Part shown: in pieces, positions 8,044 through 44,982 of the stretch
Numbering within the stretch: the first letter of the stretch is position 1
How the letters are laid out: every line of letters begins with the position of its first letter
NCBI GenBank assembly: GCA_017555905.1
Contig: JAFZFP010000008.1
Span: forward strand, 1-64,000
Length of the DNA stretch: 64,000 bases
Direction: 5' to 3'
Source: Alistipes sp.
Lineage (GTDB): Bacteria > Bacteroidota > Bacteroidia > Bacteroidales > Rikenellaceae
The notes under the pieces: generated by a model
What the model was told of the DNA's origin: nothing
Seen by the model: only the letters and a program-made list of their open reading frames with translations
Database searches by the model: none
Made by a program: the position numbers and the translations under genes

Positions 8044-10515
8044 CTATTCCTTGATTTCCTGCTCCTCAGTCGCTACAACCTCCTCGGTCTCTGGAGTCTC
8101 CTCGCCCTCTGCTACCTCCTCGGCCTCCTCTTTCTCTGGAGCATCAACTTCGACCTCGTCGTCGCCAATAATCAACGACACGCCATACTTATCCTTGCCG
8201 AGATACTCCTTGAGACTCTCAATGGTCACATCCTTAAGGGTAAACGCATCGGCAGGAAGTTCCTTATGTTGGAAAGCAACATAACGCGAGACGATATTAT
8301 TACGTTGGCTGATAAGTCTTAGCAACTGCTCGTCGGCCATATCGCCATAGAGTCTCTTGGCTTTGTCGTGCGAGGTCATACCGTGTGGGTCGATACCTCG
8401 TGCCACGAGCATAGAGTCTGCAAAGTCACGCACGGCACTACCCGAAATCTTCATATCGTTGATACGGGCGAAATCCAACATATCGAGGAAACCGCTCTGG
8501 CTACCCTCAGTAGCATTGTAATAGGCAATCTTGAGGTTGAGATCACTAATCTTCTGCACGGCACGCTTGTAGTTCACACGTGGTGTTAGGCGCACCTTGA
8601 GCGTAGTATCTGCCTTGATAGCCTCGGCCATAGCATCGATACGAGCATAGTCCTCAGAATCAAGACCTAGGGCCAAGATATCGATAGGTACACTCTGGAA
8701 TGTCTCCTGCTTAAGTGGGTTCATCCACTGGAAAGGTGAGGCAGCGACCTTCAACAACACATTACCCACAGCACGCCAGATAACCTTGCGCAACGAGAAC
8801 TCCGGAGAGTTTATATCTCCCGAGATAGGTATATCGAGGTCGATATGTTTGTTATGGTCGGTGAGTACGTAGATGCCGAGTTTCATAGGCAACTTATACT
8901 CTACATCAAGGCTCTTATCCTTGTCGCCCACCTGGAAGTTGTATGTTCCAAACTGGTTTACACCGCTAAGCGCACCATTCGTTACGACATTTTGCGAACG
9001 TATAGTCATATTTCCCGACTCCACGGGGAAGGCAGTAAAATGCTCGACGTAGGTCGAAAAGGCCTGCATATCTACATTCGAGAGCATCGCCAAGATGCTC
9101 TGGTTGTAGAAGTCGGTGAGCGAACCCTCCCACTGAATCATAGCATCACCCTGCTTAGGAAGGCGCGAGCGGACAATAATCCTATTCTTTGACATCAACT
9201 CGAAACCCTTGCTATCCACCGAGAGGTTGCTAAGTGCATAAGTGAAAGGCTCGTGCATAGTATAGTCCTCATAACTAACCTCACCACCACGAAAACGTAG
9301 TGTGCCGACGCTAAACTTAACATCCTCGAAAGGTGCCTCCTCCTCGGAAGTTGTCACCGTTACACGCTCCTTGACATCATACATCTGGTCGCCAACAGAC
9401 TCAGCGGTACTCTCCACACTAATCTCAGGGTCGCTAAAGAAGAGTTCGTCGAAGTTGGTTGTACCATCCTCGAAGAGCGCAAAACGTGTGGCGTAGTTAT
9501 CAACGGCGATGGTGCTAAAGGCAAATAACTGCTCGTCGAGGTTAAGTCTTTCGGCCGTGAGATCGATGGTCTCGGCACTAAAGAGGTTGCTACCATCCTT
9601 AGCACTAATCTTCATCGACTTTGCCAACACATTACCCTCGATATTCATCGCCATAACATCATCAACATTTCCCTTAAGGCTACAATCTACCGACAACGTA
9701 CCCTCCAAAGCCGATATGTTGAGTGTCGAGGTGAGGTAATTGTATGTATCTGCCAAGTTGAAGTTGCTAAGACGACCGTCGAAGATAAAGTCAAGAGTAC
9801 CCATATTGAAGTTCAACTCTCCATCCAAAGCACCCTCCTGGTTGATTGCCGTAGAGAGGGCTACAACCATAGGCTCCTCGCCCAACTCCACACTTGGGGT
9901 AGAGACATTGAGAGCCGTAAGCGACCAATCCTGATCGATAGTCTCATCACGATAGAGGACCTCTCCTCCCTCCAACGATACATTATTTATAGATATAGTC
10001 CACGCCGAAGGCTCGCTCTCCTCCTCTGGTTCCTCCTCGGAGGTATATGTAGCAAGGATATAATCGACGAGTGAGTCGAAATTGAAACTCTCTTCACCCT
10101 GCAACACCTGCACCTTTGGCGACTGCACCCTAACAAAATCGACTTGCACAAGGCTACTCAACAGATCCCAAACCGAGAGTTTGGTCTCGAAACGGTCGAT
10201 GCGCACAAACTCTGCCACGCAGTCCTCCTCGTAGAGAACGAGGTTATCCACCGCAACATCGCCCGAGAACAACTTAATCGAGAGGTTGTCCATCGTAAGG
10301 CTACGGCCAATAAGTTCCGTGTCGTGGTTCTCGACATACTTCTCGGCGATAGGGCCAAGCCATATAATAGCAACGGCCAAGACCACAAACAAGAGCGCAA
10401 CAATAGCGCCAAGCGTAGTAAGCATTATACGCCAAAATCCCCACTTACGACGTGGCTTAGGCTCCTCATTTGTGACGACATCGTTCAACTCTGCTTTCAT
10501 ATCGACCTGATGCAT
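8044..10515 (-). CDS. AsmA-like / DUF748 membrane-anchored protein
   Basis: Large envelope protein (823 residues) with one N-terminal membrane helix (about 28-52) and a long beta-rich part facing the periplasm. It resembles AsmA/DUF748 proteins: repeated segments of the form 'LxVxNLxL' and 'VxSPxVxV' after the helix, and a C-terminal region with 'IDAMAEAIKADTTLKVRLTP', as in DUF748. Large AsmA relatives (TamB, YhdP) are thought to carry lipid between membranes. The last 45 residues are mostly Glu and look disordered. Met at 10500 is an alternative start. It sits 33 bp after the dehydrogenase gene and 37 bp before the FKBP gene, in the steroid-reductase operon. Confidence 0.75.
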   Translation of the reverse strand: MHQVDMKAELNDVVTNEEPKPRRKWGFWRIMLTTLGAIVALLFVVLAVAIIWLGPIAEKYVENHDTELIGRSLTMDNLSIKLFSGDVAVDNLVLYEEDCVAEFVRIDRFETKLSVWDLLSSLVQVDFVRVQSPKVQVLQGEESFNFDSLVDYILATYTSEEEPEEESEPSAWTISINNVSLEGGEVLYRDETIDQDWSLTALNVSTPSVELGEEPMVVALSTAINQEGALDGELNFNMGTLDFIFDGRLSNFNLADTYNYLTSTLNISALEGTLSVDCSLKGNVDDVMAMNIEGNVLAKSMKISAKDGSNLFSAETIDLTAERLNLDEQLFAFSTIAVDNYATRFALFEDGTTNFDELFFSDPEISVESTAESVGDQMYDVKERVTVTTSEEEAPFEDVKFSVGTLRFRGGEVSYEDYTMHEPFTYALSNLSVDSKGFELMSKNRIIVRSRLPKQGDAMIQWEGSLTDFYNQSILAMLSNVDMQAFSTYVEHFTAFPVESGNMTIRSQNVVTNGALSGVNQFGTYNFQVGDKDKSLDVEYKLPMKLGIYVLTDHNKHIDLDIPISGDINSPEFSLRKVIWRAVGNVLLKVAASPFQWMNPLKQETFQSVPIDILALGLDSEDYARIDAMAEAIKADTTLKVRLTPRVNYKRAVQKISDLNLKIAYYNATEGSQSGFLDMLDFARINDMKISGSAVRDFADSMLVARGIDPHGMTSHDKAKRLYGDMADEQLLRLISQRNNIVSRYVAFQHKELPADAFTLKDVTIESLKEYLGKDKYGVSLIIGDDEVEVDAPEKEEAEEVAEGEETPETEEVVATEEQEIKE

Positions 10516-10548: not shown

Positions 10549-11367
10549 TTATTTCTGCCACTTAATCGTGAAGTTACGCAATGGGCGCACCAAGAAGCCA
10601 GGCAAATAGCGACAGATAGGGATAAAGAGACGGAACCACCAGTCGGGAACAACGATACTCTTTCCCTTGAACATAGCGTTGATACCTCGGCGTGCGCAAC
10701 TCTTGGGTGACATCAATATACCCCACTTAACACCAAACTTCTGCAAATCCTTCGAAAGGCCATAGAGGTCTGTCGCGATACCAGCAGGGCATAGCGCCGT
10801 AACCGTAACACCCGTCTTACGCAACTCCTTAGCAAAGGCCTGAGTAAAACTCTTGACGTAGGCCTTACTTGCGCTATATGATGCAAGACCTGGGAATGGC
10901 ATCCAGATAGAGTATGACGACATATTCAACAGACGACCCTTACCGCGCTTGACCATATCCTGGCCATAGAGACGGCAGAGGGTGGTGACGGTCAAGTCGT
11001 GCAAAAGGATGATGCGCTCAAGGCGCTCCTGAGGGGTGTTCAATATGTCGCAGAACGAGAACATTCCAGCGTTATTAATCACCACATCGAAGGTATATCC
11101 CTCCGAAACGCTCCAGTCGTACAACTCCCTGCCCGCAGAGGCAGTAGCCAAATCCTTGACAACATAGCGACAATCCACCTTATGCTTCTCGGCAATAATC
11201 ATTGCCTCGGTAGCGACCTGCTCAAGGATATCCACCAACACCAAGTTGTAGCCGAGTTCCGCCAAGCGCTCAGCATACTGACGACCGATGCCCAAGGCTG
11301 CGCCAGTGACCAACGCCCAAGCCGAGCCACGAACAACTTCGCCCCTATTCTTTCTCTTAAAGCACAT
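10549..11367 (-). CDS. Short-chain dehydrogenase/reductase, candidate 3-beta-hydroxysteroid dehydrogenase
   Basis: NAD(P)-dependent oxidoreductase with a complete classical SDR set: TGAALGIG (residues 21-28) for cofactor, NNAG (98-101), a serine near 150 and YSASK (164-168) with catalytic Tyr164 and Lys168. The C-terminal 35 residues are aromatic and hydrophobic and may touch the membrane. It is third in an operon with a steroid 5-alpha-reductase and an OYE-type ene-reductase. In the published Odoribacteraceae/Parabacteroides cluster the third enzyme is a 3-beta-hydroxysteroid dehydrogenase that reduces the 3-oxo group, so that role is inferred here from context. SDRs cannot be assigned a substrate from motifs alone. 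It is followed closely by the AsmA-like gene. Confidence 0.75.
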   Translation of the reverse strand: MCFKRKNRGEVVRGSAWALVTGAALGIGRQYAERLAELGYNLVLVDILEQVATEAMIIAEKHKVDCRYVVKDLATASAGRELYDWSVSEGYTFDVVINNAGMFSFCDILNTPQERLERIILLHDLTVTTLCRLYGQDMVKRGKGRLLNMSSYSIWMPFPGLASYSASKAYVKSFTQAFAKELRKTGVTVTALCPAGIATDLYGLSKDLQKFGVKWGILMSPKSCARRGINAMFKGKSIVVPDWWFRLFIPICRYLPGFLVRPLRNFTIKWQK

Positions 11368-11379
11368 AGTTTCTTCGGA

Positions 11380-12627
11380 CTACTTAATTTTGTTGATCTC
11401 CTTCCAAAGACGCTCAGGGATATGCTCCTTGCAGTTGTGACAGCACTGCATATCTACCGAGTACATACGTGCCATACAGTAGTCGCGATGGTCGCAACCA
11501 CTACGTGTGGACATATCGCCCGCCTTGAGTTTATTCACGAAGGCTGGGTCATTGACCAAGGCACGCGCCATCTGCACAAGTTCGAAGCCCTCATCCAAGA
11601 CACGCTCGATACCCTCGCGTGACACCAAACCACCAACATATACCAATGGGCCCTTCAAAGCCTCACGGAACTTCTTTGCATTCTCCAAGAAGTAGCACTC
11701 CTCGAAGTCGTACTGCTTAATAAGCCATTGACCAAAGAGCGACACGACAATCTTCTGCAACCACTCGTTCCAACCCATATAGTAGCCCATAGTCTTTGTA
11801 GGGATACGGCCACGCATAACTGCCATAGGGGCCTTAGAGACGAAGCCCGAAGAGAGTACGATACCATCGACGCCGAAGGTCTCGATCTGCTTAGCAATCT
11901 CGATAGACTCTGGCACCTGGATACCACTCTTGAAGCCATCCTCCATATTATGCTTTACGAGGACACCCATACCACGCTTGCGAGCCATCTCCATAACCTC
12001 CTCCAAGACCATATTCATAAAGCGCATACGGTTCTGGAGTGAGCCACCGAACTCATCGCGACGATGGTTGGTATATGGCGAGAGAAACTGCGAGATAAGG
12101 TAGCCGTGACCTGCGTGAATCTCCACAGAGTCGAAACCTGCGTTGTAGGCTGTATCTACGGCCTTACCAAAATCCTTAGCGAACTCCGTAATCTCGCTCT
12201 TGGTCATTCGACGGTGGAAGGTTGGCGAGTAGAGATTAAAACCATTAGAGGCCGACACAGGGAAACTGCCCGCAGTAGACCAATGGGTCATATTACCACA
12301 GTGGCCCAACTGAATACCCACTGCTGCACCCTCCTTATGTACTGCATCGGTAAGGTCGCGCAACTCTGGCACGATCTCATCGCGAAGCCACAACTGCTTA
12401 TTGAACGAGATACCGCTACGATTGATTGAGGCATAGGCTACAGTAGTCATACCCACACCACCACGAGCCACGCTAACGTGGTAATCCTTCAACGCCTGGG
12501 TAGGGCCGAAATCCTTACCCATTGACTCAAATGCCGCAGAACGTATCACACGGTTGCGGAGCGTCACACTACCTAATTTGTAAGGAGTAAAGAGTTTTGA
12601 CTCCTCCAATTTCTTCTGATTCTCCAT
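11380..12627 (-). CDS. OYE-family NADH:flavin oxidoreductase, candidate 3-oxo-delta-4-steroid 5-beta-reductase
   Basis: FMN enzyme of the Old Yellow Enzyme family, predicted to reduce an activated C=C bond. The TIM barrel (residues about 10-370) begins with LFTPYKLGSVTLRNRV and contains the active-site GYLISQFLSPYTN and RRDEFGG signatures. A cysteine-rich end (C-x5-C and CCHNC, about 383-402) resembles the iron-sulfur site of BaiCD/2,4-dienoyl-CoA reductases, but the protein is 415 residues and lacks their C-terminal FAD/NAD domain. It lies 6 bp after the 5-alpha-reductase gene and 12 bp before the dehydrogenase gene. In the known isoallo-bile-acid cluster the flavoenzyme is called 5-beta-reductase; that name is inferred here. 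Confidence 0.75.
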   Translation of the reverse strand: MENQKKLEESKLFTPYKLGSVTLRNRVIRSAAFESMGKDFGPTQALKDYHVSVARGGVGMTTVAYASINRSGISFNKQLWLRDEIVPELRDLTDAVHKEGAAVGIQLGHCGNMTHWSTAGSFPVSASNGFNLYSPTFHRRMTKSEITEFAKDFGKAVDTAYNAGFDSVEIHAGHGYLISQFLSPYTNHRRDEFGGSLQNRMRFMNMVLEEVMEMARKRGMGVLVKHNMEDGFKSGIQVPESIEIAKQIETFGVDGIVLSSGFVSKAPMAVMRGRIPTKTMGYYMGWNEWLQKIVVSLFGQWLIKQYDFEECYFLENAKKFREALKGPLVYVGGLVSREGIERVLDEGFELVQMARALVNDPAFVNKLKAGDMSTRSGCDHRDYCMARMYSVDMQCCHNCKEHIPERLWKEINKIK

Positions 12628-12633
12628 AATATT

Positions 12634-13416
12634 TTAGTAGATAAATGGAATGATTCGCTTACGGCCCAACGAGGTGAACTCCTCACCAAACTCTCGCTCA
12701 TAGCGCTTGTACAACGATGCTGAACGAGGTGCAAGGTTTGCGAATGTCCACCACGCAAAGACAACACCTGCCCACGACCACGAAGCGATGGCGAAACCCA
12801 CCCACTCCATAAACTCACCGAAGTAGTTTGCCGAAGAGACATAGCGGAACATACCGCCCTTAGGGATATAGTGTTTCGTATCACCTGGCTTGCGCAGGTT
12901 GCGAATTATATAGTCTGAGTGGAGGTTGGTAATGAAGCCGAAGAGGAATACAGCGATTCCGATGTAGATATATGGCTTCGACATCCAACCATCATAGTAG
13001 CCCATCTCGGGAGCGTAGTAGAAGATCCAACCACCCTGCATAATGGCATTAAGTGTATTGAAGATAGCACCCATAAGCACGATACCGATAGGCATCTTCG
13101 AGTTACCACGCATCAAGGCAGGGAAGATGAACGAACGCTGGAAATAGTGCATCTCAAAGATGAGGAAGAGCAACAGAGGGGCTGCCTCCATACCGTAGTC
13201 CGAAGCGTACCACAAAGCCGCCATAGCAAAGAACACGGGACACTCCATCAACACCCAACCCACCTTATTTGGCACAGGAAAGCCAAACTTAGGGTTAAAG
13301 AGATAGCCATAGCCAGCCTCAACAAAGAAGAGGGCAATAAAGACAAAGAGTGCCACAACAGCCATTGCTATAAGGAAGAGATTGTAACTCTCCAACGGTA
13401 TCAATTCAAAAAACAT
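12634..13416 (-). CDS. Steroid 5-alpha-reductase family protein (3-oxo-5-alpha-steroid 4-dehydrogenase)
   Basis: Integral membrane enzyme predicted to reduce the delta-4 double bond of 3-oxo-4-ene steroids or bile acids with NADPH, giving the flat 5-alpha (allo) ring fusion. The 260 residues have about six or seven membrane segments and match the length of vertebrate SRD5A1/2. The C-terminal third carries the family signature in order: HSDYIIRNLRKPGD (near 165), IPKGGMFRYVSSANYFGE (near 185), EWVGFAIASWS, and the terminal RKRIIPFIY. This is close to human SRD5A1 as I remember it. It is the first gene of the operon, behind a good promoter, and is followed at 6 bp by the flavoenzyme gene. Confidence 0.9.
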   Translation of the reverse strand: MFFELIPLESYNLFLIAMAVVALFVFIALFFVEAGYGYLFNPKFGFPVPNKVGWVLMECPVFFAMAALWYASDYGMEAAPLLLFLIFEMHYFQRSFIFPALMRGNSKMPIGIVLMGAIFNTLNAIMQGGWIFYYAPEMGYYDGWMSKPYIYIGIAVFLFGFITNLHSDYIIRNLRKPGDTKHYIPKGGMFRYVSSANYFGEFMEWVGFAIASWSWAGVVFAWWTFANLAPRSASLYKRYEREFGEEFTSLGRKRIIPFIY

Positions 13417-13505
13417 TGCGTTAATAGTTTATTCTATTTTTAACTAAATTACCACTATATTGGTACATTTCTCCACTTTTATCTCTACTAAGAGATATAA
13501 TCGTG

Positions 13506-13537
13506 CAAAGATACTAAAAAAAAAGTTAATAAACAAT
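13506..13537 (-). promoter_or_regulatory. Promoter of the steroid-reductase operon
   Basis: Reverse-strand ATTG (13534-13537), 20 bases, TATCTTTG (13506-13513). A start near 13500 gives a leader of about 83 bases before the 5-alpha-reductase ATG at 13416. Confidence 0.7.
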
Positions 13538-13578: not shown

Positions 13579-13634
13579 AAAAAAGTCAGTTGGACTACTG
13601 AGTCTCGAAAAAATCAAAACCCAATAATCCAACT
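13579..13634 (-). terminator. Probable terminator of the hut operon
   Basis: On the reverse strand AGTTGGA (from 13634) pairs with TCCAACT (to 13589) across a long loop and is followed by GACTTTTTT (to 13579). It lies between the nitroreductase stop and the steroid-operon promoter. The wide loop lowers confidence. Confidence 0.5.
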
Positions 13635-14298: not shown

Positions 14299-15537
14299 CT
14301 ATTTAATCAATTGACCCTTAAGCACAACACGCTTGATGATAGGTGTCTGGTGTGCGTAAGGCAAATAAGCCAACGATGGCAAAGGCTTAGTAATGTAGAA
14401 GTTAGCCACCTTGCCACGTGTTATAGAGCCATAGTCGTTGCTCTCGCCCATAGCCGCAGCACTATTGAGCGTAGCAGCATTGAGAGCCTCCGCAGGGGTC
14501 ATCTTCATCTTGATAGATGCCAACGACACCACAAAGCGCATATTACCCGATGGGGCAGTTCCAGGATTGAAGTCCGAAGCCAACGCCACAGCCAAGCCCG
14601 CATTAATCATCTTGCGTGCTGGAGGGTAGGTAATACCGAGGAAGAAGGCACAACCAGGCAACATCGTAGGCATAGTATTCGTGCCACGCAATGCCTCTAT
14701 CTGCTCGTCGCCCATAGACTCCAAGTGGTCCACCGACAAGGCGTTATGCTCAACACCGACCTCTACGCCACCCGACACAGCCAACTCGTTGGCGTGAATC
14801 TTAGCACGTAGACCATACTCGGCTCCCACCTTCATAATCTTTGCTGTCTCCTCCACGGTAAAGAAACCCTTATCGCAGAAGACATCGACGAAGTCGGTAA
14901 GACCCTCCTTAGCCACCGCAGGAATCATATCACGGCATACGTGGTCCACGTAGTCGCTCTGACGACCCTTATAGGCACGACCTACGGCGTGTGCGCCAAG
15001 GAATGTAGCACGTACAGCGATAGGCGAAGTCTCGCGGATACGCTTAATGACGCGCAATATTTTGAGCTCATCCTCCAACGTGAGACCATAGCCAGACTTA
15101 ATCTCCACAAGGCCAGTACCCATAGCGATAATCTCATCGATACGCTCCATAGCCTGACGGTAGAGTTCATCCTCAGAGGTATCGTGCAAGCGGTCCGCAG
15201 AGTTCAAGATACCTCCTCCACGCTTAGCAATCTCCTCATACGACAAGCCATTAATCTTATCCAAGAACTCCTGCTCGCGACTACCAGCATAGACGATATG
15301 TGTGTGCGAGTCGCAGAAGGATGGGAAGAGCCAACCACCCTCGGCATCGAGGACCTCACAGTCCTCCTCCGAAGGGAGGTTATCCATAGTGCCATAGTCA
15401 CAGATGCGACCCTCCTCGGCCAAGAGCCACGCACCTTCGAGCGTAGCAATATTGGCCATATCAGAGCCACACACCCTCAATCGGCCACTCTCGTCGATAC
15501 CGACGAGAGTGCCTATATTTTTAACGAGCAATCTCAT
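14299..15537 (-). CDS. hutI: Imidazolonepropionase
   Basis: HutI opens the ring of 4-imidazolone-5-propanoate to N-formimino-L-glutamate, third step of histidine breakdown, in the cytosol. The 412 residues match the family. The metal-binding HTH pair is at 78-80 (CDSHTHIVYAG), IKSGYGL lies near 150, HANELA near 240 and SDFNPG near 318, all typical of this amidohydrolase. The start codon lies 17 bp inside the end of hutH, so translation of the two genes is likely coupled. A nitroreductase lipoprotein gene follows after 7 bp. Confidence 0.96.
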   Translation of the reverse strand: MRLLVKNIGTLVGIDESGRLRVCGSDMANIATLEGAWLLAEEGRICDYGTMDNLPSEEDCEVLDAEGGWLFPSFCDSHTHIVYAGSREQEFLDKINGLSYEEIAKRGGGILNSADRLHDTSEDELYRQAMERIDEIIAMGTGLVEIKSGYGLTLEDELKILRVIKRIRETSPIAVRATFLGAHAVGRAYKGRQSDYVDHVCRDMIPAVAKEGLTDFVDVFCDKGFFTVEETAKIMKVGAEYGLRAKIHANELAVSGGVEVGVEHNALSVDHLESMGDEQIEALRGTNTMPTMLPGCAFFLGITYPPARKMINAGLAVALASDFNPGTAPSGNMRFVVSLASIKMKMTPAEALNAATLNSAAAMGESNDYGSITRGKVANFYITKPLPSLAYLPYAHQTPIIKRVVLKGQLIK

Positions 15538-17017
15538 AGTCGTTGAGGAACTTAACCGATGTAGCGATATGTGGATACATCACCGTATCGTTGTCCACGA
15601 ATGGGACAACCTTGCGGTATGCCTCGAACATAGCCTCCACAGTTGCTGAAGAGCGAACATCCTCCTTGTGGCGGAACTCCAAGGCCTGAGCCGAATTCAT
15701 CAACTCGATAGCCAACACACGCTCGGTGTTATTAACCACCTTCCACAACTTAGTAGCGGCGTTAGAACCCATACTTACGTGATCCTCCTGACCCTGCGAC
15801 GATGGGATAGAGTCGCACGATGCTGGCCAGCACAAGCCCTTAGACTGGCTCACGATAGAGGCAGCGGTGTACTGAGGAATCATAAAGCCACTGTTGAGAC
15901 CTGGGTTAGCAACCAAGAAGTTAGGCAACTGACGTGCGCCCGAGATAAGTTTATAAGTACGACGCTCAGAGATATTACCAAGCTCCGCTACGGCGATAGC
16001 CAAGAAATCCATAGCCACAGCGATAGGCTGGCCGTGGAAGTTACCTGCTGAGATCACCTCGTCGCTATCAGGGAATACGGTTGGGTTGTCGGTAGCAGAG
16101 TTAATCTCTGTCTCCAAGACTGTAGCAACGTATGCGATAGTATCCTTCGAAGCACCGTGTACCTGTGGGATACAACGGAATGAGTAAGGATCCTGAACGT
16201 GGCTCTTAGCACGTGCGCCAATCTGACTACCAGCCAAAATCTCGCGGAAGTTCTTAGCAGTCTCAATCTGGCCGTTATGAGGACGGATGGCGTGTACGTT
16301 ATGCTCGAATGGCTCCATACGGCCATCGAAAGCATCCAACGACATAGCACCGATATAGTCAGCCAAGAGGCTGAGACGCTGTGCGTTGATAAGTGAATAA
16401 ACACCGTATGCCGACATAAACTGTGTACCGTTCAAAAGCGCAAGACCCTCCTTAGAGCAGAGTGTGATAGGCTCCCAGCCCATCTTCTCCATCATCACGC
16501 TACCCTCAACAACCTCGCCGTCGATCTCAACGTGGCCCAAGCCAAGAAGTGGCAAACACATATGAGCCAAAGGTGAAAGGTCGCCCGAAGCACCCAACGA
16601 ACCCTGCTCATAGACTACAGGGATGATATCGTTGTTGAACATCTCGATAAGACGCTCTACGGTAATGAGCTGTACGCCTGAATGGCCATAAGACAACGAC
16701 TGCACCTTGAGCAAAATCATAAGACGTGCTATCTCACGTGGCACACGGTCGCCAGTACCGCAAGCGTGCGACATCATAAGGTTCTTCTGCAACTGCGACA
16801 AACCCTCCTTCTCTACCGAGATATTGCACAACGAGCCAAAGCCAGTGGTGACACCATAGATAGGACGACCAGCATCCTCCATCTTTTTATCGAGATACTC
16901 ACGACACTTGATGATACGAGCCTTAGCATCGTCGCTCAAGGCGAGTTTATAACCTTTGGTAAGAATCTCCTCAACACGTGCGATTGTGAGGCGCTCTGAA
17001 CTAATATAGTGAATCAT
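15521..17017 (-). CDS. hutH: Histidine ammonia-lyase
   Basis: HutH removes ammonia from L-histidine to give trans-urocanate, first step of the pathway. The Ala-Ser-Gly that cyclises into the MIO cofactor is at residues 143-145 in GSLGASGDLSPLAHM, as in the family. YGVTTGFGSL (54-63) provides the active-site loop. Length 498 is normal. It follows hutU by 22 bp and overlaps hutI by 17 bp. The gene is mid-operon and shows no promoter of its own. Confidence 0.97.
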   Translation of the reverse strand: MIHYISSERLTIARVEEILTKGYKLALSDDAKARIIKCREYLDKKMEDAGRPIYGVTTGFGSLCNISVEKEGLSQLQKNLMMSHACGTGDRVPREIARLMILLKVQSLSYGHSGVQLITVERLIEMFNNDIIPVVYEQGSLGASGDLSPLAHMCLPLLGLGHVEIDGEVVEGSVMMEKMGWEPITLCSKEGLALLNGTQFMSAYGVYSLINAQRLSLLADYIGAMSLDAFDGRMEPFEHNVHAIRPHNGQIETAKNFREILAGSQIGARAKSHVQDPYSFRCIPQVHGASKDTIAYVATVLETEINSATDNPTVFPDSDEVISAGNFHGQPIAVAMDFLAIAVAELGNISERRTYKLISGARQLPNFLVANPGLNSGFMIPQYTAASIVSQSKGLCWPASCDSIPSSQGQEDHVSMGSNAATKLWKVVNNTERVLAIELMNSAQALEFRHKEDVRSSATVEAMFEAYRKVVPFVDNDTVMYPHIATSVKFLNDYEIAR

Positions 17018-17039
17018 AACTTATTCTTCGTTAAATCAA

Positions 17040-19055
17040 TTATTTATTCTCGTTAAAAATCTTCTCGATAAGATCCATATCCGCCAAGTTAGGCATAGTG
17101 ACCTTAAGAAGTGGCGTGCGCTCCATCTGGCGCTTGATAGCAAACATAGCGCCCTCGTTACGAGCCCAGCTACGACGAGCGATACCGTTGTTCACATCCC
17201 ACAACAACATCTCCTCGATGTGGCGACGAGAGTCGTCAGAGCCATCGATAACCATACCGAAGCCACCATTCATAACCTCGCCCCAGCCTACGCCACCACC
17301 ATTGTGGATAGATACCCAGGTAGCGCCACGGAATGAGTCGCCGATGACGTTGTGTACGGCCATATCGGCGCAGAAGTGCGAGCCGTCATAAATATTTGAA
17401 GTCTCACGGTATGGAGAGTCGGTACCAGATACGTCGTGGTGGTCACGACCCAAGACTACTGGAGCCTTCAACTCGCCACGCTTAATCGCCTCGTTAAAGG
17501 CCAAAGCGATACGTGTACGACCCTCAGAGTCGGCATAGAGAATACGAGCCTGTGAGCCAACGACGAGTTTGTTCTGCTTAGCCTCACGAATCCAGTGGAG
17601 GTTATCCTCCATCTGGCCCTGAATCTCCTTTGGAGACTCCTTGAGCATCTCCTCCAACACCTCTGCAGCAATGCGGTCGGTGGTCTCAAGATCCTCCTCC
17701 AAGCCTGAAGTACAAACCCAACGGAATGGGCCGAAGCCGTAGTCGAAGAACATAGGACCCATAATATCCTGAACGTATGATGGATAGCGGAACTTACCGC
17801 CCTCAGCCATAATATCTGCGCCAGCACGTGAAGCCTCCAAGAGGAAGGCGTTACCGTAGTCGAAGAAGTACATACCACGTGCAGTGAGTTTGTTGATAGC
17901 AGCCACCTGACGACGCAACGACTCACGAACACACTCGTGGAAACGCTCAGGCTCCTCGGCCATCATACGGTTAGACTCCTCGTAAGAGTAGCCCACTGGG
18001 TAGTAGCCACCAGCCCAAGGGTTGTGCAACGATGTCTGGTCAGAGCCAAGATCTACGTTGATATTCTCCTCAGCCAAACGCTCCCAGAGGTCTACGACAT
18101 TACCTACGTAGGCAAACGAGATAACCTCCTTATTCTCCACAGCCTTGCGAACACGTGGGATAAGTTCGTCGAGTGAGGTGTACAACTCATCCACCCAACC
18201 CTGCTTGTGACGCTTCTCCGCAGCCGCGATATTCACCTCGGCAGTGATACTCACCACACCCGAGATATTACCTGCCTTAGGCTGTGCACCCGACATACCA
18301 CCAAGACCTGCGGTTACGAACAACATACCACGCAAATCCTTCTGACCTGGCTTCATACGCTTTCTGGCAGCATTCATAACGGTAATTGTTGTACCGTGAA
18401 CGATACCCTGAGGGCCAATGTACATATATGAGCCCGCAGTCATCTGACCATACTGCGATACGCCCATAGCGTTCATACGCTCCCAATCGTCCTGTGACGA
18501 GTGGTTAGGGATAACCATACCGTTGGTAACAACCACACGTGGAGCATCCTTATGTGATGGGAAGAGACCAAATGGGTGACCAGAGTACATAACCAATGTC
18601 TGCTCGTCGGTCATCTCAGCCAAATACTTCATCGCCAAGCGATACTGAGCCCAGTTCTGGAACACCGCACCGTTACCACCATAGGTAATAAGTTCGTGAG
18701 GGTGCTGAGCAACAGCCTTGTCGAGGTTGTTCTGAATCATAAGCATAATCGCTGCTGCCTGGCGTGAGCGTGCTGGATACTCCTCGATAGGACGAGCATA
18801 CATCTCATACTCTGGGCGCAAACGATACATATAGATACGACCATAGGTCTTCAACTCCTCCAAGAACTCAGGAATCAACTCCGCATGGTGCTTTTCGGGG
18901 AAGTAGCGCAAAGCGTTAGCCAAGGCCAACTTCTTCTCCTCGTCGGTAAGGATATCCTTACGCTTTGGGGCGTGGTTAGCCGCAGGGTCGTAGGCTCTCT
19001 TTGCTGGCAATGGATCAGGAATACCGGCCAATATATCTTTCTGAAAATCTGTCAT
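17040..19055 (-). CDS. hutU: Urocanate hydratase
   Basis: HutU adds water to urocanate to form imidazolonepropionate, using tightly bound NAD as an electrophile. Family blocks are clear: YSGHPFGLFPS, NGMVIPNHSS and GQMTAGSYMYIGPQGIVHGT in the first half, and a nucleotide-binding segment rich in glycine (TAGLGGMSGAQPKA). With the ATG at 19055 it has 671 residues, closer to the vertebrate enzyme than to the roughly 555 residues of the Pseudomonas type; this long form is common in Bacteroidetes. In-frame Met at 19064 or 19082 would add 3 or 9 residues. It lies 27 bp after ftcD and 22 bp before hutH. Confidence 0.95.
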   Translation of the reverse strand: MTDFQKDILAGIPDPLPAKRAYDPAANHAPKRKDILTDEEKKLALANALRYFPEKHHAELIPEFLEELKTYGRIYMYRLRPEYEMYARPIEEYPARSRQAAAIMLMIQNNLDKAVAQHPHELITYGGNGAVFQNWAQYRLAMKYLAEMTDEQTLVMYSGHPFGLFPSHKDAPRVVVTNGMVIPNHSSQDDWERMNAMGVSQYGQMTAGSYMYIGPQGIVHGTTITVMNAARKRMKPGQKDLRGMLFVTAGLGGMSGAQPKAGNISGVVSITAEVNIAAAEKRHKQGWVDELYTSLDELIPRVRKAVENKEVISFAYVGNVVDLWERLAEENINVDLGSDQTSLHNPWAGGYYPVGYSYEESNRMMAEEPERFHECVRESLRRQVAAINKLTARGMYFFDYGNAFLLEASRAGADIMAEGGKFRYPSYVQDIMGPMFFDYGFGPFRWVCTSGLEEDLETTDRIAAEVLEEMLKESPKEIQGQMEDNLHWIREAKQNKLVVGSQARILYADSEGRTRIALAFNEAIKRGELKAPVVLGRDHHDVSGTDSPYRETSNIYDGSHFCADMAVHNVIGDSFRGATWVSIHNGGGVGWGEVMNGGFGMVIDGSDDSRRHIEEMLLWDVNNGIARRSWARNEGAMFAIKRQMERTPLLKVTMPNLADMDLIEKIFNENK

Positions 19056-19082
19056 AATCGTCATTTTTAGGGATTGCCACAA

Positions 19083-20789
19083 TTACTTAATTTTGCTCTC
19101 TACGACGGCCAAAACCTCAGCCTCAGCCTTCTGAGCCAAAGCCTGAATCTCCTCAGCCTCCTTAACCAAAGCATCGGCCATAGCACGATCCTTAAGGCCT
19201 GCAGCATTAATCTTAACATTGAGGCAAGCACCCATAACTGCTGAACGAGCAGCCAAAGCACCTACACCAGCATCAGAAACAGAGTTAGGGTTACCCTCCT
19301 CGGCCATAGCACGAACAACATCGAACGCCTTATATGCTGCCTTCATAGTACGCAAAGGCACCTGAGTAGCATACAATGTAGCAGCCTCCATAGCCTCAGC
19401 ACGTGCAGCCTTCTCCTCGTCAGTACCCTTAGGCATACCGAACACATCCATAATCTTATTGAATGCTGCGGTATCCTCATCCACGAGATACAACAACTCG
19501 TTCATAACAGCCATACCGTTGTCTGCCCAATCTGAGAAGAACTCCCAGCGGTCATCCCAACCAGCCTTGTGTGACGAGAGGTTAGCAACCATAGTACCCA
19601 ACGCAGCAGCCAAAGCACCCATATAAGCCGAAATAGAGCCACCACCAGGGGCTGGAGACTCACTCGCTGTCTCCTCAGCAAAGCCCGCACAGGTCATATC
19701 CACAAGTTTCTTGATGCCCTTCTGCTGATCAGCCTCCAAGATATACTCTACGACCTTCTCATCTGGGTTGAAAGGCTTGAGGTTAGAAAGACCCATAGAC
19801 TCGATAGCGATACGCACCAACTCTCTCTCAGGAAGACCTGTAGAGCGATTCTGCTTACGCAAGAAGTGACGACCAGCATCTACCAAAGCGCTCTTTGGCA
19901 CAAGACCTACAATCTCGGCACCAGTTACACGCACACCGCGAGCCTCAGCAGCACGGCACACCTCGTCGAAGGCTACGTGCAAAGGAGTGATCGAGAGGTT
20001 AGTCATATTCATAGATACCTGAGCGATACCATACTCCTCGATAAACCAGCCAATAGCCTTACAAGCCTTCAACGTACCTGGCTTCATAATGGTATTGCCA
20101 TTCTCGTCCTTCATAATCTTACCTACGATAGGGTTACCCTCACGCATAGGACGACCCTTCTCGCGAACGTCGAATGCAATAGCATTAGCACGACGTGTAG
20201 AGGTTGTATTGAGGTTGTAGTTTACAGCAACGAGGAAGTCACGTGCGCCAACGGCTGTAGCACCGCTCTTCGCTACACCCTCATCAAATGGGCGAGCGCC
20301 AAAGTCTGGCTTACTCTTCTCATCCATCATCTTCTCTGGCAACGCCTCATACTCACCTGCACGGCAAACAGCCAAGTTGCGACGCTCAGGGGTGAAGGCT
20401 GCAGCCTCGTAGCAATATGTAGGCACGTTAAGCTCCTCAGCGATACGCTTAGCAAGAGCACGCGCCAACTCAGCACACTCCTCCAAAGTGATACCAGATA
20501 CAGGAATCAAAGGACATACGTCGCAAGCACCCATACGTGGGTGAGCGCCCTTATGCTGACGCATATCAATAAGTTCGGTTGCGCGCTTAATAGCAGCAAC
20601 AGCAGCATCACACACTGCCTCAGGCTCACCTACGAAGGTTACAACAGTTCGGTTTGTAGCCTCGCCTGGATCAACGTCCAAAAGTTTAACGCCCTTAGCA
20701 GCCTCGATTACATCGGTAATCTGCTTGATAGTCTCAGCATTGCGACCCTCAGAAAAGTTAGGTACGCACTCAACGATTCTCTTTTGCAT
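19083..20789 (-). CDS. ftcD: Glutamate formimidoyltransferase / formimidoyltetrahydrofolate cyclodeaminase fusion
   Basis: Two-domain enzyme that passes the formimino group from formiminoglutamate to tetrahydrofolate and then releases ammonia to give methenyl-THF, feeding one-carbon metabolism. Residues about 1-335 are the transferase (IVECVPNFSEGRN at 5-17, HKGAHPRMGACDVCP near 80). Residues about 355-565 are the cyclodeaminase, starting at TASESPAPGGGSISAYMGAL. The domain order equals that of mammalian FTCD. This replaces HutG or HutF/HutE routes, none of which is present. It lies second in the operon after the Dabb gene (41 bp) and before hutU. Confidence 0.95.
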   Translation of the reverse strand: MQKRIVECVPNFSEGRNAETIKQITDVIEAAKGVKLLDVDPGEATNRTVVTFVGEPEAVCDAAVAAIKRATELIDMRQHKGAHPRMGACDVCPLIPVSGITLEECAELARALAKRIAEELNVPTYCYEAAAFTPERRNLAVCRAGEYEALPEKMMDEKSKPDFGARPFDEGVAKSGATAVGARDFLVAVNYNLNTTSTRRANAIAFDVREKGRPMREGNPIVGKIMKDENGNTIMKPGTLKACKAIGWFIEEYGIAQVSMNMTNLSITPLHVAFDEVCRAAEARGVRVTGAEIVGLVPKSALVDAGRHFLRKQNRSTGLPERELVRIAIESMGLSNLKPFNPDEKVVEYILEADQQKGIKKLVDMTCAGFAEETASESPAPGGGSISAYMGALAAALGTMVANLSSHKAGWDDRWEFFSDWADNGMAVMNELLYLVDEDTAAFNKIMDVFGMPKGTDEEKAARAEAMEAATLYATQVPLRTMKAAYKAFDVVRAMAEEGNPNSVSDAGVGALAARSAVMGACLNVKINAAGLKDRAMADALVKEAEEIQALAQKAEAEVLAVVESKIK

Positions 20790-42540: not shown

Positions 42541-44982
42541 CTACTTAGCGATAAGCTTCATCTTAGCTACATTATCAACGATGGTGAAGTAAACATCGTA
42601 AGTTCCTGTAGTCTCAACCAACATATCCTTACCGTTGAAGGCAAGCTCATACACCTCGCCTACCTTAGCGTTCTGGCCATCCTCTGCGTGACCGTAGCTG
42701 ATAGCCCAAGCACCATCAGCACGAATCTTGAACTTCTTGCCAGCCTCCAAAGCCAAGTCCTTAGCTACAACCCAGCCATCCTCAGCTGTCATTGCACTAT
42801 CACCCCAGCCATTGTGTTCGCCAGCAACGCCCCATGTGTGCTCACCAAGAACGATAGACTTGCTCTCGCCATCCATAGTGTATGACAAGTCGGCATTCAC
42901 TACGAAGTGGTGATCCTTATCCAAGACAACACCATTGATGTCGGCAGTCTGTGCAGTACCATTGTTGAAGATTACATTGATAGTCTTGCCAACAGCCTCT
43001 GCTGGTGCAGTCCATACATACTTGCCATCCTCCAATGTAAGAGCCTGGCCTGGCCAATTACCACCAGAGTAGTTAGCATCGCTATCCCAAGCCCAGATAT
43101 TACAGTTCTCCCAACCAGGAGCTGTTACATCGACTGTAAGTTTAATCTCTGATGGGGTTGGAGCCTCGCCATCGATAGTGTATGACAAGTCGGCGTTCAA
43201 AACGAATGTGTGATCCTTGTCCATTACTACGCCAGTGATATCAGCAGTCTGGCTAGTACCATTATTGAAGATTACGCTAATAGTCTTGCCTGTAACCTCT
43301 GCTGGTGCAGTCCATACATACTTGCCATCCTCCAATGTAAGAGCCTGGCCTGGCCAGTTACCACCAGAGTAGTTAGCAGCGCTATCCCAAGCCCAGATAT
43401 TACAGTTCTCCCAACCTGTAGCAGTTACATCAACATACAACTTATAGCTCTTCAAGGTAATATCGCTTGGAACCTGACCCTCGGTCATAACCCATACCTT
43501 CTCCTCTGCGAGGCTAAAGTAAATATCATATGTACCATCAGCAGGCACCATCATATTGCATGAACCACCGCTGGTGATTACTGCGAAACCTACGTTGAGC
43601 TCTACAACACCCGCAGTCTCCAAACCGTAGTTCTTAGCATCGTTCCACTCGTCGTTGAAACGAATCTTAAACTCATCAGTAGTAGTCAAAGCAACAGCAC
43701 GACGAACGTAGAGGTCAGCACCAACCTCGTCCATATAGAAGTCAGGCTTCTCACCCCAACCAGTGATTGTACCTACAAGGCCCCAACGGTTAGGCTCCTT
43801 CTCTGCTGGAGTCTCTGGATTCTCAGGAGTCTCAGGAGTCTCAGGGGTCTGACCACCTACTGGCTCTGTCTGGCCATACATATCTGCGTTCAACTCATAC
43901 TTCATCTCTGCAGAGTTAGACAAGTAGAGGTAAACACGATAGTTACCAGCCTCAGCGCAATTGAGGTTATCACCCTCCTCACCGAAGGCACCACCGCCCC
44001 AGTTCTTAGTCCAAGAACCATCAGTACGGAACTTAAACTCACCTGAGAAGTTCTCGATATCAACCCAGAAGCGACGCTTAGCAGCATTGAACTCCATCAC
44101 CTTATCCTGACCATCAGCCCAGTTAGTGAATGCGCCAACAACACCAACCTGGTCGAATGAGTAGTTGTGCTTCAACTCGCCTGAGTTAGTATCCATTGAG
44201 AAGTGGTAGAAACGCTTAGCGGTGTAAGCAGTGATGTTACCGCCACCACTTGAGAGCAATGTAAGGCTTGCAGCCTCTGGATCTACAGTGTCGCCATCCT
44301 GGCCCCACTCGCCATTGTTCCAACCATTGCCATCACCATCCTCATCAGGATTAGTAAACTTCCACTGACGAGCAGTGTCGTTAGAAGCACCGAAGTCAGC
44401 AATACCCTCATAGACACCTTTGCCCTCGAAGTCGTAAAGAACCTCGAAGCGTGTGAAACCACCAAGTGGATCCCAACCCTGGTAAGAACCTGGCATTGAA
44501 ATCATAGGATAAACCTTCTCAGCAGATGTAGGAGTGATGCTTACAGTAAATGCGTTAGACTCCACGCGCTGGTTACCTACCGCAGCAACGATATAGAGTT
44601 CTACGTCGGCTGCAATCTCAGGAACAAGACCCAAACCGCCATCCTTAACAGCAAGAGCCATAGCAGAGTTGATAGCCTCATAAGTAACCTCCATTGTCAA
44701 GTCACCAGTAGAGCTGATAAGAACCTCGTTACCTGCATTTCTGGCTGCCAAAGAGTAGCTTACAACTACCTGAGCGCCAAAATCGGCCTTACTCCACGCG
44801 AAAGAAACCTTCTCGCCCATATTCTTTGAGGTGATAACAATCTCCTCGAAGCCCAAATCCTCAAGAACAGGTGCTGTCACCTGATCCAAAGGCAATATCT
44901 GGACCTGCTCCAAATCGGTGGTACAAGCTGCTGAGAGCGATACCACAGCGATAAGAGACATTATATACTTTAAAAATTTCAT
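42541..44982 (-). CDS. SusE/SusF-like multi-domain starch-binding lipoprotein
   Basis: Outer-surface starch-binding protein of 813 residues, about twice the size of SusE or SusF. Lipobox SAAC (Cys20) followed by TTDLE, a likely surface-export signal. A SusE-type N-terminal domain (about 25-150) comes first, then two binding modules (about 165-385, with SYQGWDPLGG and VVGAFTNWADG), a Pro/Glu/Thr linker (about 392-408), a module starting WGLVGTITGWGEKPDFY, two nearly identical CBM26-like modules (about 514-605 and 614-705) and a final module (WGVAGEHNGWGDS). Tryptophans recur as in starch-binding sites. It follows susD by 38 bp. Confidence 0.88.
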   Translation of the reverse strand: MKFLKYIMSLIAVVSLSAACTTDLEQVQILPLDQVTAPVLEDLGFEEIVITSKNMGEKVSFAWSKADFGAQVVVSYSLAARNAGNEVLISSTGDLTMEVTYEAINSAMALAVKDGGLGLVPEIAADVELYIVAAVGNQRVESNAFTVSITPTSAEKVYPMISMPGSYQGWDPLGGFTRFEVLYDFEGKGVYEGIADFGASNDTARQWKFTNPDEDGDGNGWNNGEWGQDGDTVDPEAASLTLLSSGGGNITAYTAKRFYHFSMDTNSGELKHNYSFDQVGVVGAFTNWADGQDKVMEFNAAKRRFWVDIENFSGEFKFRTDGSWTKNWGGGAFGEEGDNLNCAEAGNYRVYLYLSNSAEMKYELNADMYGQTEPVGGQTPETPETPENPETPAEKEPNRWGLVGTITGWGEKPDFYMDEVGADLYVRRAVALTTTDEFKIRFNDEWNDAKNYGLETAGVVELNVGFAVITSGGSCNMMVPADGTYDIYFSLAEEKVWVMTEGQVPSDITLKSYKLYVDVTATGWENCNIWAWDSAANYSGGNWPGQALTLEDGKYVWTAPAEVTGKTISVIFNNGTSQTADITGVVMDKDHTFVLNADLSYTIDGEAPTPSEIKLTVDVTAPGWENCNIWAWDSDANYSGGNWPGQALTLEDGKYVWTAPAEAVGKTINVIFNNGTAQTADINGVVLDKDHHFVVNADLSYTMDGESKSIVLGEHTWGVAGEHNGWGDSAMTAEDGWVVAKDLALEAGKKFKIRADGAWAISYGHAEDGQNAKVGEVYELAFNGKDMLVETTGTYDVYFTIVDNVAKMKLIAK
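42868..43441 (-). repeat. Tandem duplication of a CBM26-like module (300-bp period)
   Basis: Two copies of about 274 bp (42868-43141 and 43168-43441) are offset by exactly 300 bp. Long stretches are identical at the DNA level, such as the part coding for NYSGGNWPGQALTLEDGKYV, with mainly third-position and few amino-acid differences, so the duplication is recent or kept similar by recombination. Confidence 0.9.

Follow-up and report, generated by a model that had tools for sequence, protein, structure and literature searches.

A conserved 5-alpha-reductase operon of an Alistipes-like bacterium, its probable role in steroid A-ring reduction and the two dehydrogenase subfamilies found downstream of it in Bacteroidales

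The first 64,000 nucleotides of contig JAFZFP010000008.1 from an Alistipes sp. assembly (GCA_017555905.1), here called the window, contain three head-to-tail genes coding for a 5-alpha-reductase-type protein (5AR), a flavoenzyme of the old yellow enzyme family (OYE) and a short-chain dehydrogenase/reductase (SDR). The organism is an uncultured, Alistipes-like gut bacterium of the Rikenellaceae, in which the operon probably serves to reduce or isomerise ring A of steroids with a 3-keto group, bile acids being the most likely substrates. It is a real, well-conserved operon of an already known kind, which combines a 5AR, a putative 5-beta-reductase (5BR) and a hydroxysteroid dehydrogenase (HSDH). 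What seems to be new within the literature surveyed is the anatomy of its downstream end, where two SDR subfamilies, designated SDRa and SDRb, are split between lineages; the window carries SDRa.

All three genes lie on the minus strand, with 5AR at 12634-13416 (260 amino acids), OYE at 11380-12627 (415 amino acids) and SDR at 10549-11367 (272 amino acids). The open reading frame (ORF) coordinates leave 6 bp between 5AR and OYE and 12 bp between OYE and SDR, in agreement with the three adjacent leftward genes described in an earlier note on this DNA. The enzyme types named there (SRD5A-type, OYE-type and classical SDR) are borne out by Pfam matches to Steroid_dh (PF02544, expectation value (E) 5.2e-44), Oxidored_FMN (PF00724, E 2.4e-59) and adh_short (PF00106, E 1.4e-37), all above gathering score. 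Gene content, gene order and protein families are recognisable across Bacteroidales, where the genes are linked and their catalytic residues intact; the reactions of OYE and SDR, the substrate and the expression of the genes as one operon are inferred. In the proposed pathway, OYE would interconvert 3-oxo-5-beta and 3-oxo-delta4 forms and thereby supply 5AR with substrate, 5AR would reduce the 3-oxo-delta4 compound at C5 to a 3-oxo-5-alpha (allo) product, and SDRa would convert a hydroxyl of this steroid scaffold to a ketone and back, with C3 as the probable site.

Among solved structures, the window 5AR matches 7c83 (E 6.1e-54) and SRD5A2 (7bw1, E 8.4e-42). Its Glu58 and Tyr91 align to Glu57 and Tyr91 of SRD5A2 (own residue count), which we take to be the catalytic residues, and both are invariant in 12 sequences of the genus. 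The protein therefore has the PF02544 domain and the Glu/Tyr pair of an SRD5A-type enzyme, and it differs from SRD5A2 and 7c83 in sitting in a bacterial three-gene operon. An NCBIfam search gave zero matches for 5AR. Genes for 5AR were earlier noted in chicken Bacteroidetes isolates, all Odoribacter isolates but two and P. distasonis, according to the excerpted text of that study (PMC6069880). By analogy with relatives described in the literature, 5-alpha reduction of 3-oxo-4-ene steroids by the window 5AR is likely.

The best-known relatives belong to a Bacteroidota cluster of a 5AR, a predicted 3-beta-HSDH and an NADH:flavin oxidoreductase, as recounted in excerpts of a review of Sato et al. 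(PMC10382948). This is the same enzyme trio as in the window, so that the earlier assignment of the operon to the Sato type stands. According to the same excerpts, isoallolithocholic acid (isoalloLCA) is formed from 3-oxo-delta4-lithocholic acid (3-oxo-delta4-LCA) by strains of P. merdae, O. laneus and B. dorei, 3-oxo-alloLCA is made by twenty other Bacteroidota strains, and disruption of the P. merdae 5AR prevented the formation of alloLCA derivatives (PMC10382948). A 3-alpha-HSDH together with a 5BR was proposed to make the delta4 intermediate in part of a further article (PMC9645264). Our comparison with the Sato-type cluster rests on loci of named Parabacteroides species, which stand in for the P. 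merdae and O. laneus genes. The window resembles them in enzyme types, in gene order and in the related OYE that follows 5AR on the same strand. The alignment proposed in the earlier note came out in two ways: 5AR and OYE are related to those of the Parabacteroides massiliensis cluster (L093; 59% and 57% identical, respectively), but the SDR is not a counterpart, as the window gene is an SDRa and not an orthologue of the Parabacteroides SDRb.

Linkage of these genes was followed through the order. With 5AR as query, 125 of 392 genomes from the order gave a match (E <=0.001); in 53 of the 392, the window's own genome included, the match (56 places, counted by hand) showed 49-100% identity, and the others were at <=41% or covered short stretches. 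The loci examined comprised 53 of these 56 close places, 20 divergent ones, 80 from named organisms (the best 80 of at least 576 confirmed matches) and 20 from Parabacteroides and the Odoribacter family, the last two groups showing a 5AR match in 20 of 38 and 12 of 56 genomes, respectively; as top matches plus hand picks, this sample is non-random. Merging identical 5AR sequences left 160 distinct loci, 140 close and 20 divergent, and 125 of the 140 offered at least 3.2 kb downstream. OYE adjoins 5AR in 106 of these 125 loci (104 in a gap-limited count, plus L028 and L162), which argues that the linkage is not due to chance. The arrangements in the 125 loci are OYE+SDRa+SDRb (36), OYE+SDRb+SDRa (1), OYE+SDRb (30), OYE+SDRa (27) and OYE with two SDRa (2); OYE alone occurs in 8, SDRb without OYE in 2, two SDRa without OYE in 1 and nothing recognised in 16, and the remaining two loci, L028 and L162, have OYE plus SDRa. 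A draw of 392 genomes from the whole phylum, which included few of the window's order, contained OYE at E <=1e-90 in three, all of them members of that order.

A divergent 5AR clade (identity <=41%; L073-L092) occurs in other genomes of the order. In the 20 loci examined, no OYE or SDR lies within 5 kb on the strand of 5AR, and in one of them (L091) a 31% OYE match lies 6 kb away on the opposite strand. An arrangement of 5AR followed by two SDRa-like genes, without OYE, was seen at L114:919-2545 in the metagenome-assembled genome (MAG) ADurb.Bin234; L158 is similar, with one long ORF.

The OYE was aligned over 142 cluster rows, duplicates from one genome being kept separate. His171, His174, Tyr176, Gln180, Cys110, Cys378, Cys384 and Cys395 are invariant in all 142. 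Near the C-terminus (11443-11496, minus strand) lies a C-x-H-x3-C-x10-C motif made up of Cys378, His380, Cys384 and Cys395, whose three cysteines occur in every row and whose histidine occurs in 137; judged from this pattern, it could bind a metal or an Fe-S cluster. Fe-S enzymes of the BaiCD and FadH type have a C-x2-C-x3-C-x11-C cluster motif, which the C-x5-C-x10-C spacing of the window OYE does not fit. Against the BaiCD model the protein scores 183.7 bits of an 825-bit cut-off, with the best stretch covering model positions 3-257 of 642, and it reaches no NCBIfam model cut-off. It shares the OYE barrel family and the catalytic Tyr with BaiCD and with 5BRs of the clostridial ci2350 type, but differs from them in length (415 amino acids versus the 642-position BaiCD model), in active-site residues and in Cys spacing. 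Since it falls below the BaiCD cut-off and has other residues, it is not a member of the BaiCD family, though it may work similarly. Function as a 5BR was hypothesised for the OYE of such clusters in the review excerpts (PMC10382948), and the window OYE is a putative 3-oxo-5-beta-steroid reductase/delta4-dehydrogenase.

Several observations weigh against the proposed role of the operon in A-ring reduction of bile acids. In 19 of the 125 close loci, no OYE adjoins 5AR. Furthermore, clostridial 5BRs divide into a hormone clade, in which ci2350 has N166 and S171, and a bile-acid clade with mostly Tyr/Ser plus Glu, as far as the excerpted article goes (PMC12238238); by motif position, the window OYE has the active-site residues of neither clade and carries Gly175 and Gln180 instead, position 175 being Gly in 137 of the 142 rows and position 180 Gln in all of them. 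Together with the score far below the BaiCD cut-off, this replacement would suit an OYE that acts as some other ene-reductase (for example delta1 or delta6) on the steroids of 5AR. Such an activity is unlikely, given the close linkage of OYE to 5AR and the several Bacteroidota strains that, in the review excerpts, turn 5-beta substrates (3-oxoLCA or isoLCA) into isoalloLCA, a conversion that requires a delta4-forming enzyme (PMC10382948).

Further points against the role in bile-acid reduction concern the substrate. Record titles give sheep reticulum as the source of one cluster (L160) and yak rumen as that of a 5AR with no cluster (L172). Bile hardly gets to the reticulum or rumen, and bile acids are therefore perhaps not the sole substrate. 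The window's own genome (a draft, 87% complete) gave no match to the bile salt hydrolase (BSH) family, and the same held for 29 more of the 61 genus genomes. An operon that serves mainly other steroids, such as host hormones or phytosterol-derived 4-ene-3-ones, with bile acids being incidental, would agree with the reticulum cluster, with the steroid reductases that are the nearest solved relatives of 5AR and with the division of clostridial 5BRs by hormone and bile acid (PMC12238238, in part). We consider it improbable, as bile acids were affected by the P. merdae 5AR disruption in the excerpted review (PMC10382948) and 31 of the 61 genus genomes do have a match to the BSH family. The BSH model also matches 4 of 14 control genomes, Bacillus subtilis among them, so that a match is no proof of bile-salt hydrolysis; BSH has been reported in Alistipes MAGs from dairy cows in an article available in part (PMC9750977). 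Bile acids stay the favoured substrate of the operon.

The window belongs to a draft genome of 1.77 Mb (86.85% complete), in which it is contig 29. Of 36 further genomes from this genus, 31 have 5AR, and the five without a match are drafts of 72-86% completeness.

The SDR of the window is a classical SDR with TGxxxGxG and the Ser-Tyr-Lys residues and may be a 3-HSDH, a putative assignment made from its sequence. Ser151, Tyr164 and Lys168 are invariant in all 75 aligned SDRa, and the catalytic Ser/Tyr/Lys likewise in all 71 SDRb. The two subfamilies are separated by every score used. With profiles built from 30 SDRa and 9 SDRb sequences (one SDRa row, L054, comes from outside the clusters), SDRa scored 274-417 bits against their own profile (595 for the double-length ORF of L158) and 27-75 against the SDRb profile, and SDRb scored 166-509 bits against their own and 32-84 against the SDRa profile. 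As a single-sequence query, the window SDR scored no lower than 135 bits against any of the 77 cluster SDRa and no higher than 31.7 against 73 cluster SDRb; an SDRb query (L048) gave 125-302 bits with all 72 other SDRb and <=45.2 with SDRa. Top-scoring models are PRK05855, mycolate-SDR and FabG-like ones for SDRa (window and L100) and PRK06197-like ones for SDRb (P. massiliensis and B. xylanisolvens clusters); the window SDR reached no NCBIfam cut-off among the 25 best of 206 models. Its solved relatives are mostly FabG-like reductases, with the 3-beta/17-beta-HSDH 1hxh far down the list, and as the best ones are FabG-like no substrate is called. A cofactor preference for SDRa was sought in the residue at the end of strand 2 and set aside, the residue being Asp in the window and Ser, Gly or Asp in relatives. 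A second, solitary SDRa-like gene occurs in the window's genome (L197:9342-10157; 41% identical to the window SDR), and genomes G021 and G035 likewise carry a solitary one (39%).

The two subfamilies are split between lineages in the following way. In the window's genus, SDRa is the only one of the two in all seven regions that extend far enough (L026-L032). Among the best 80 of at least 576 confirmed matches from named organisms, Alistipes-titled loci have SDRa only in 10 of 13 cases (two have both, L128 and L131, and one is cut off), and Bacteroides-titled loci have SDRb without SDRa in 14 of 15, a MAG (L134) having both. In the same set, SDRb occurs in 3 of 4 Parabacteroides-titled loci, P. 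gordonii having neither OYE nor SDR beside 5AR, both SDRs occur in 3 of 3 Barnesiella-titled loci, and in Coprobacter both are found in C. secundus and SDRb only in a MAG (L098). Odoribacter-family loci have both SDRs in 8 of 10 cases and SDRb only in the other two. A further set of 21 loci, some of them repeats, contained no SDRa: 18 have OYE+SDRb, one has SDRb only (L220), one has its 5AR at a contig end (L205), and L209, included for another gene, lacks 5AR. At the level of whole genomes, SDRb (L048 query) was not found in the 61 genomes of the window's genus (best score 58 bits; 36.8 in the window's genome), and SDRa was not found in four Parabacteroides and three Bacteroides genomes (best match 33% identical, <=70 bits). 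In G504, G392, G186 and G500, it is the cluster SDRa that the window SDR matches best (41-46%). The window shares the first three genes, in the same order, with a four-gene cluster 5AR-OYE-SDRa-SDRb found in this analysis in Butyricimonas, Sanguibacteroides, Barnesiella, Coprobacter secundus and Odoribacter-family genomes, but it lacks SDRb both in the cluster and elsewhere in the draft genome.

In a quick 5AR+OYE tree of 60 picked rows, the window falls into a group of 11 rows that includes records with the titles Alistipes, Millionella and Rikenellaceae. A single branch (SH-aLRT 90) separates the 17 SDRb-only rows from all others. In undirected counts, SDRa presence is explained by one change and SDRb presence by six, the three states jointly requiring seven. 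L128 groups beside Coprobacter rows, apart from the window's group, and SDRa-only rows are found in other lineages too.

A bearing on the end product comes from part of a table citing Sato et al., in which 5AR conversion of 3-oxo-delta4-LCA to 3-oxoalloLCA is listed for P. goldsteinii, B. thetaiotaomicron and A. onderdonkii, and 3-beta-HSDH for O. laneus, Odoribacteraceae, P. distasonis and P. merdae; A. onderdonkii is not in the latter list as excerpted (PMC12692668). On this entry, the 3-oxo-allo product is favoured for the window, isoallolithocholate formation and the stereochemistry of a 3-OH are unsupported, and the earlier claim that the organism sets the 3-OH appears doubtful. Synthesis of isoalloLCA as in P. 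merdae and O. laneus, with the window SDR as 3-beta-HSDH, is in line with the identical enzyme types and gene order of the known clusters and with the presence of SDRa beside SDRb in Odoribacter-family clusters (L048/L100, L187-L191, L194), where it might be the 3-beta-HSDH, but is quite improbable in view of the Parabacteroides clusters with SDRb and no SDRa, the failure to find SDRb in the 61 genus genomes and the tabulated end of the A. onderdonkii pathway at 3-oxoalloLCA (PMC12692668, in part). The presence of SDRb was also considered as a predictor of isoalloLCA and rejected: it is not a sufficient mark, because P. goldsteinii and B. thetaiotaomicron, whose genera mostly have SDRb here (in loci titled with other names than these two species), are tabulated for 3-oxoalloLCA in the same excerpt. 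No description of the two-SDR pattern was found in the titles and abstracts of the literature surveyed; it may be in print in Sato et al. or in doi 10.1016/j.chom.2021.07.013.

Upstream of 5AR, a sigma-70 promoter at 13506-13537 was considered and rejected, as a scan gives no site there, and a Bacteroidota pattern was used in its place. The pattern search located the -7 element TATCTTTGC at 13505-13513 on the minus strand, approximately 90 nt 5' of the 5AR start codon, so that the promoter proposed in the earlier note is retained in this form. Its pattern, TAnnTTTG, is of the Bacteroidota -7 type, and a partial -33 element near 13531-13537 (minus strand) was picked out by eye. The window contains 18 copies of TANNTTTGC compared with a shuffle mean of 7.31 (standard deviation 2.55), and 0 of 100 shuffles reach 18. 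The next gene upstream on the same strand codes for a nitroreductase; a terminator-like stem-loop 3' of it (13588-13634, minus strand) was used to set the upstream limit of the operon, though five such sites in the region against 4.7 expected make this weak evidence. On the other side, an AsmA/DUF748-family gene (8044-10515, same strand) begins 33 bp 3' of SDR and is possibly co-transcribed. With the window protein as probe, this family was seen 3' of SDRa in only four loci (L026, L027, L166 and L167) and was therefore excluded from the conserved operon.

Elsewhere in the window, histidine-degradation genes lie upstream on the same strand (14299-20789), comprising urocanase (TIGR01228) and ORFs named by eye as imidazolonepropionase-like, histidine ammonia-lyase-like and long formiminotransferase/cyclodeaminase-like. 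The window opens (1-425) with what we take to be a 16S rRNA 5' end in reverse complement; after it come TACCTTTGC elements on the minus strand at 191, 303 and 417, spaced by about 113 bp, which are probably tandem rRNA promoters. A 300-bp tandem repeat (1.9 copies, 89% matches) lies at 42865-43431 within a large ORF. Rfam at gathering score and ARAGORN gave no match in the window.

As a tentative extension, SDRa and SDRb could be an opposite-handed pair of 3-HSDHs split between lineages, and OYE could represent a short 5BR/delta4-dehydrogenase subfamily with a metal or Fe-S site. The end product of such a pathway has been reported, in partly available reviews, to inhibit gram-positive pathogens (isoalloLCA; PMC10382948) and to promote regulatory T cells. 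If the proposed pair is true, the four-gene operon would let one cell convert 5-beta,3-alpha bile acids into 5-alpha,3-beta ones. The Alistipes clade would keep SDRa and end at 3-oxo-allo or 3-alpha-allo products, and Bacteroides and Parabacteroides would keep SDRb and yield isoallo products; isoallolithocholate would therefore partly be a community product. If the two SDRs follow lineage, a 5AR alone, or any SDR beside a 5AR, would poorly predict completion of the pathway in gut bacteria.

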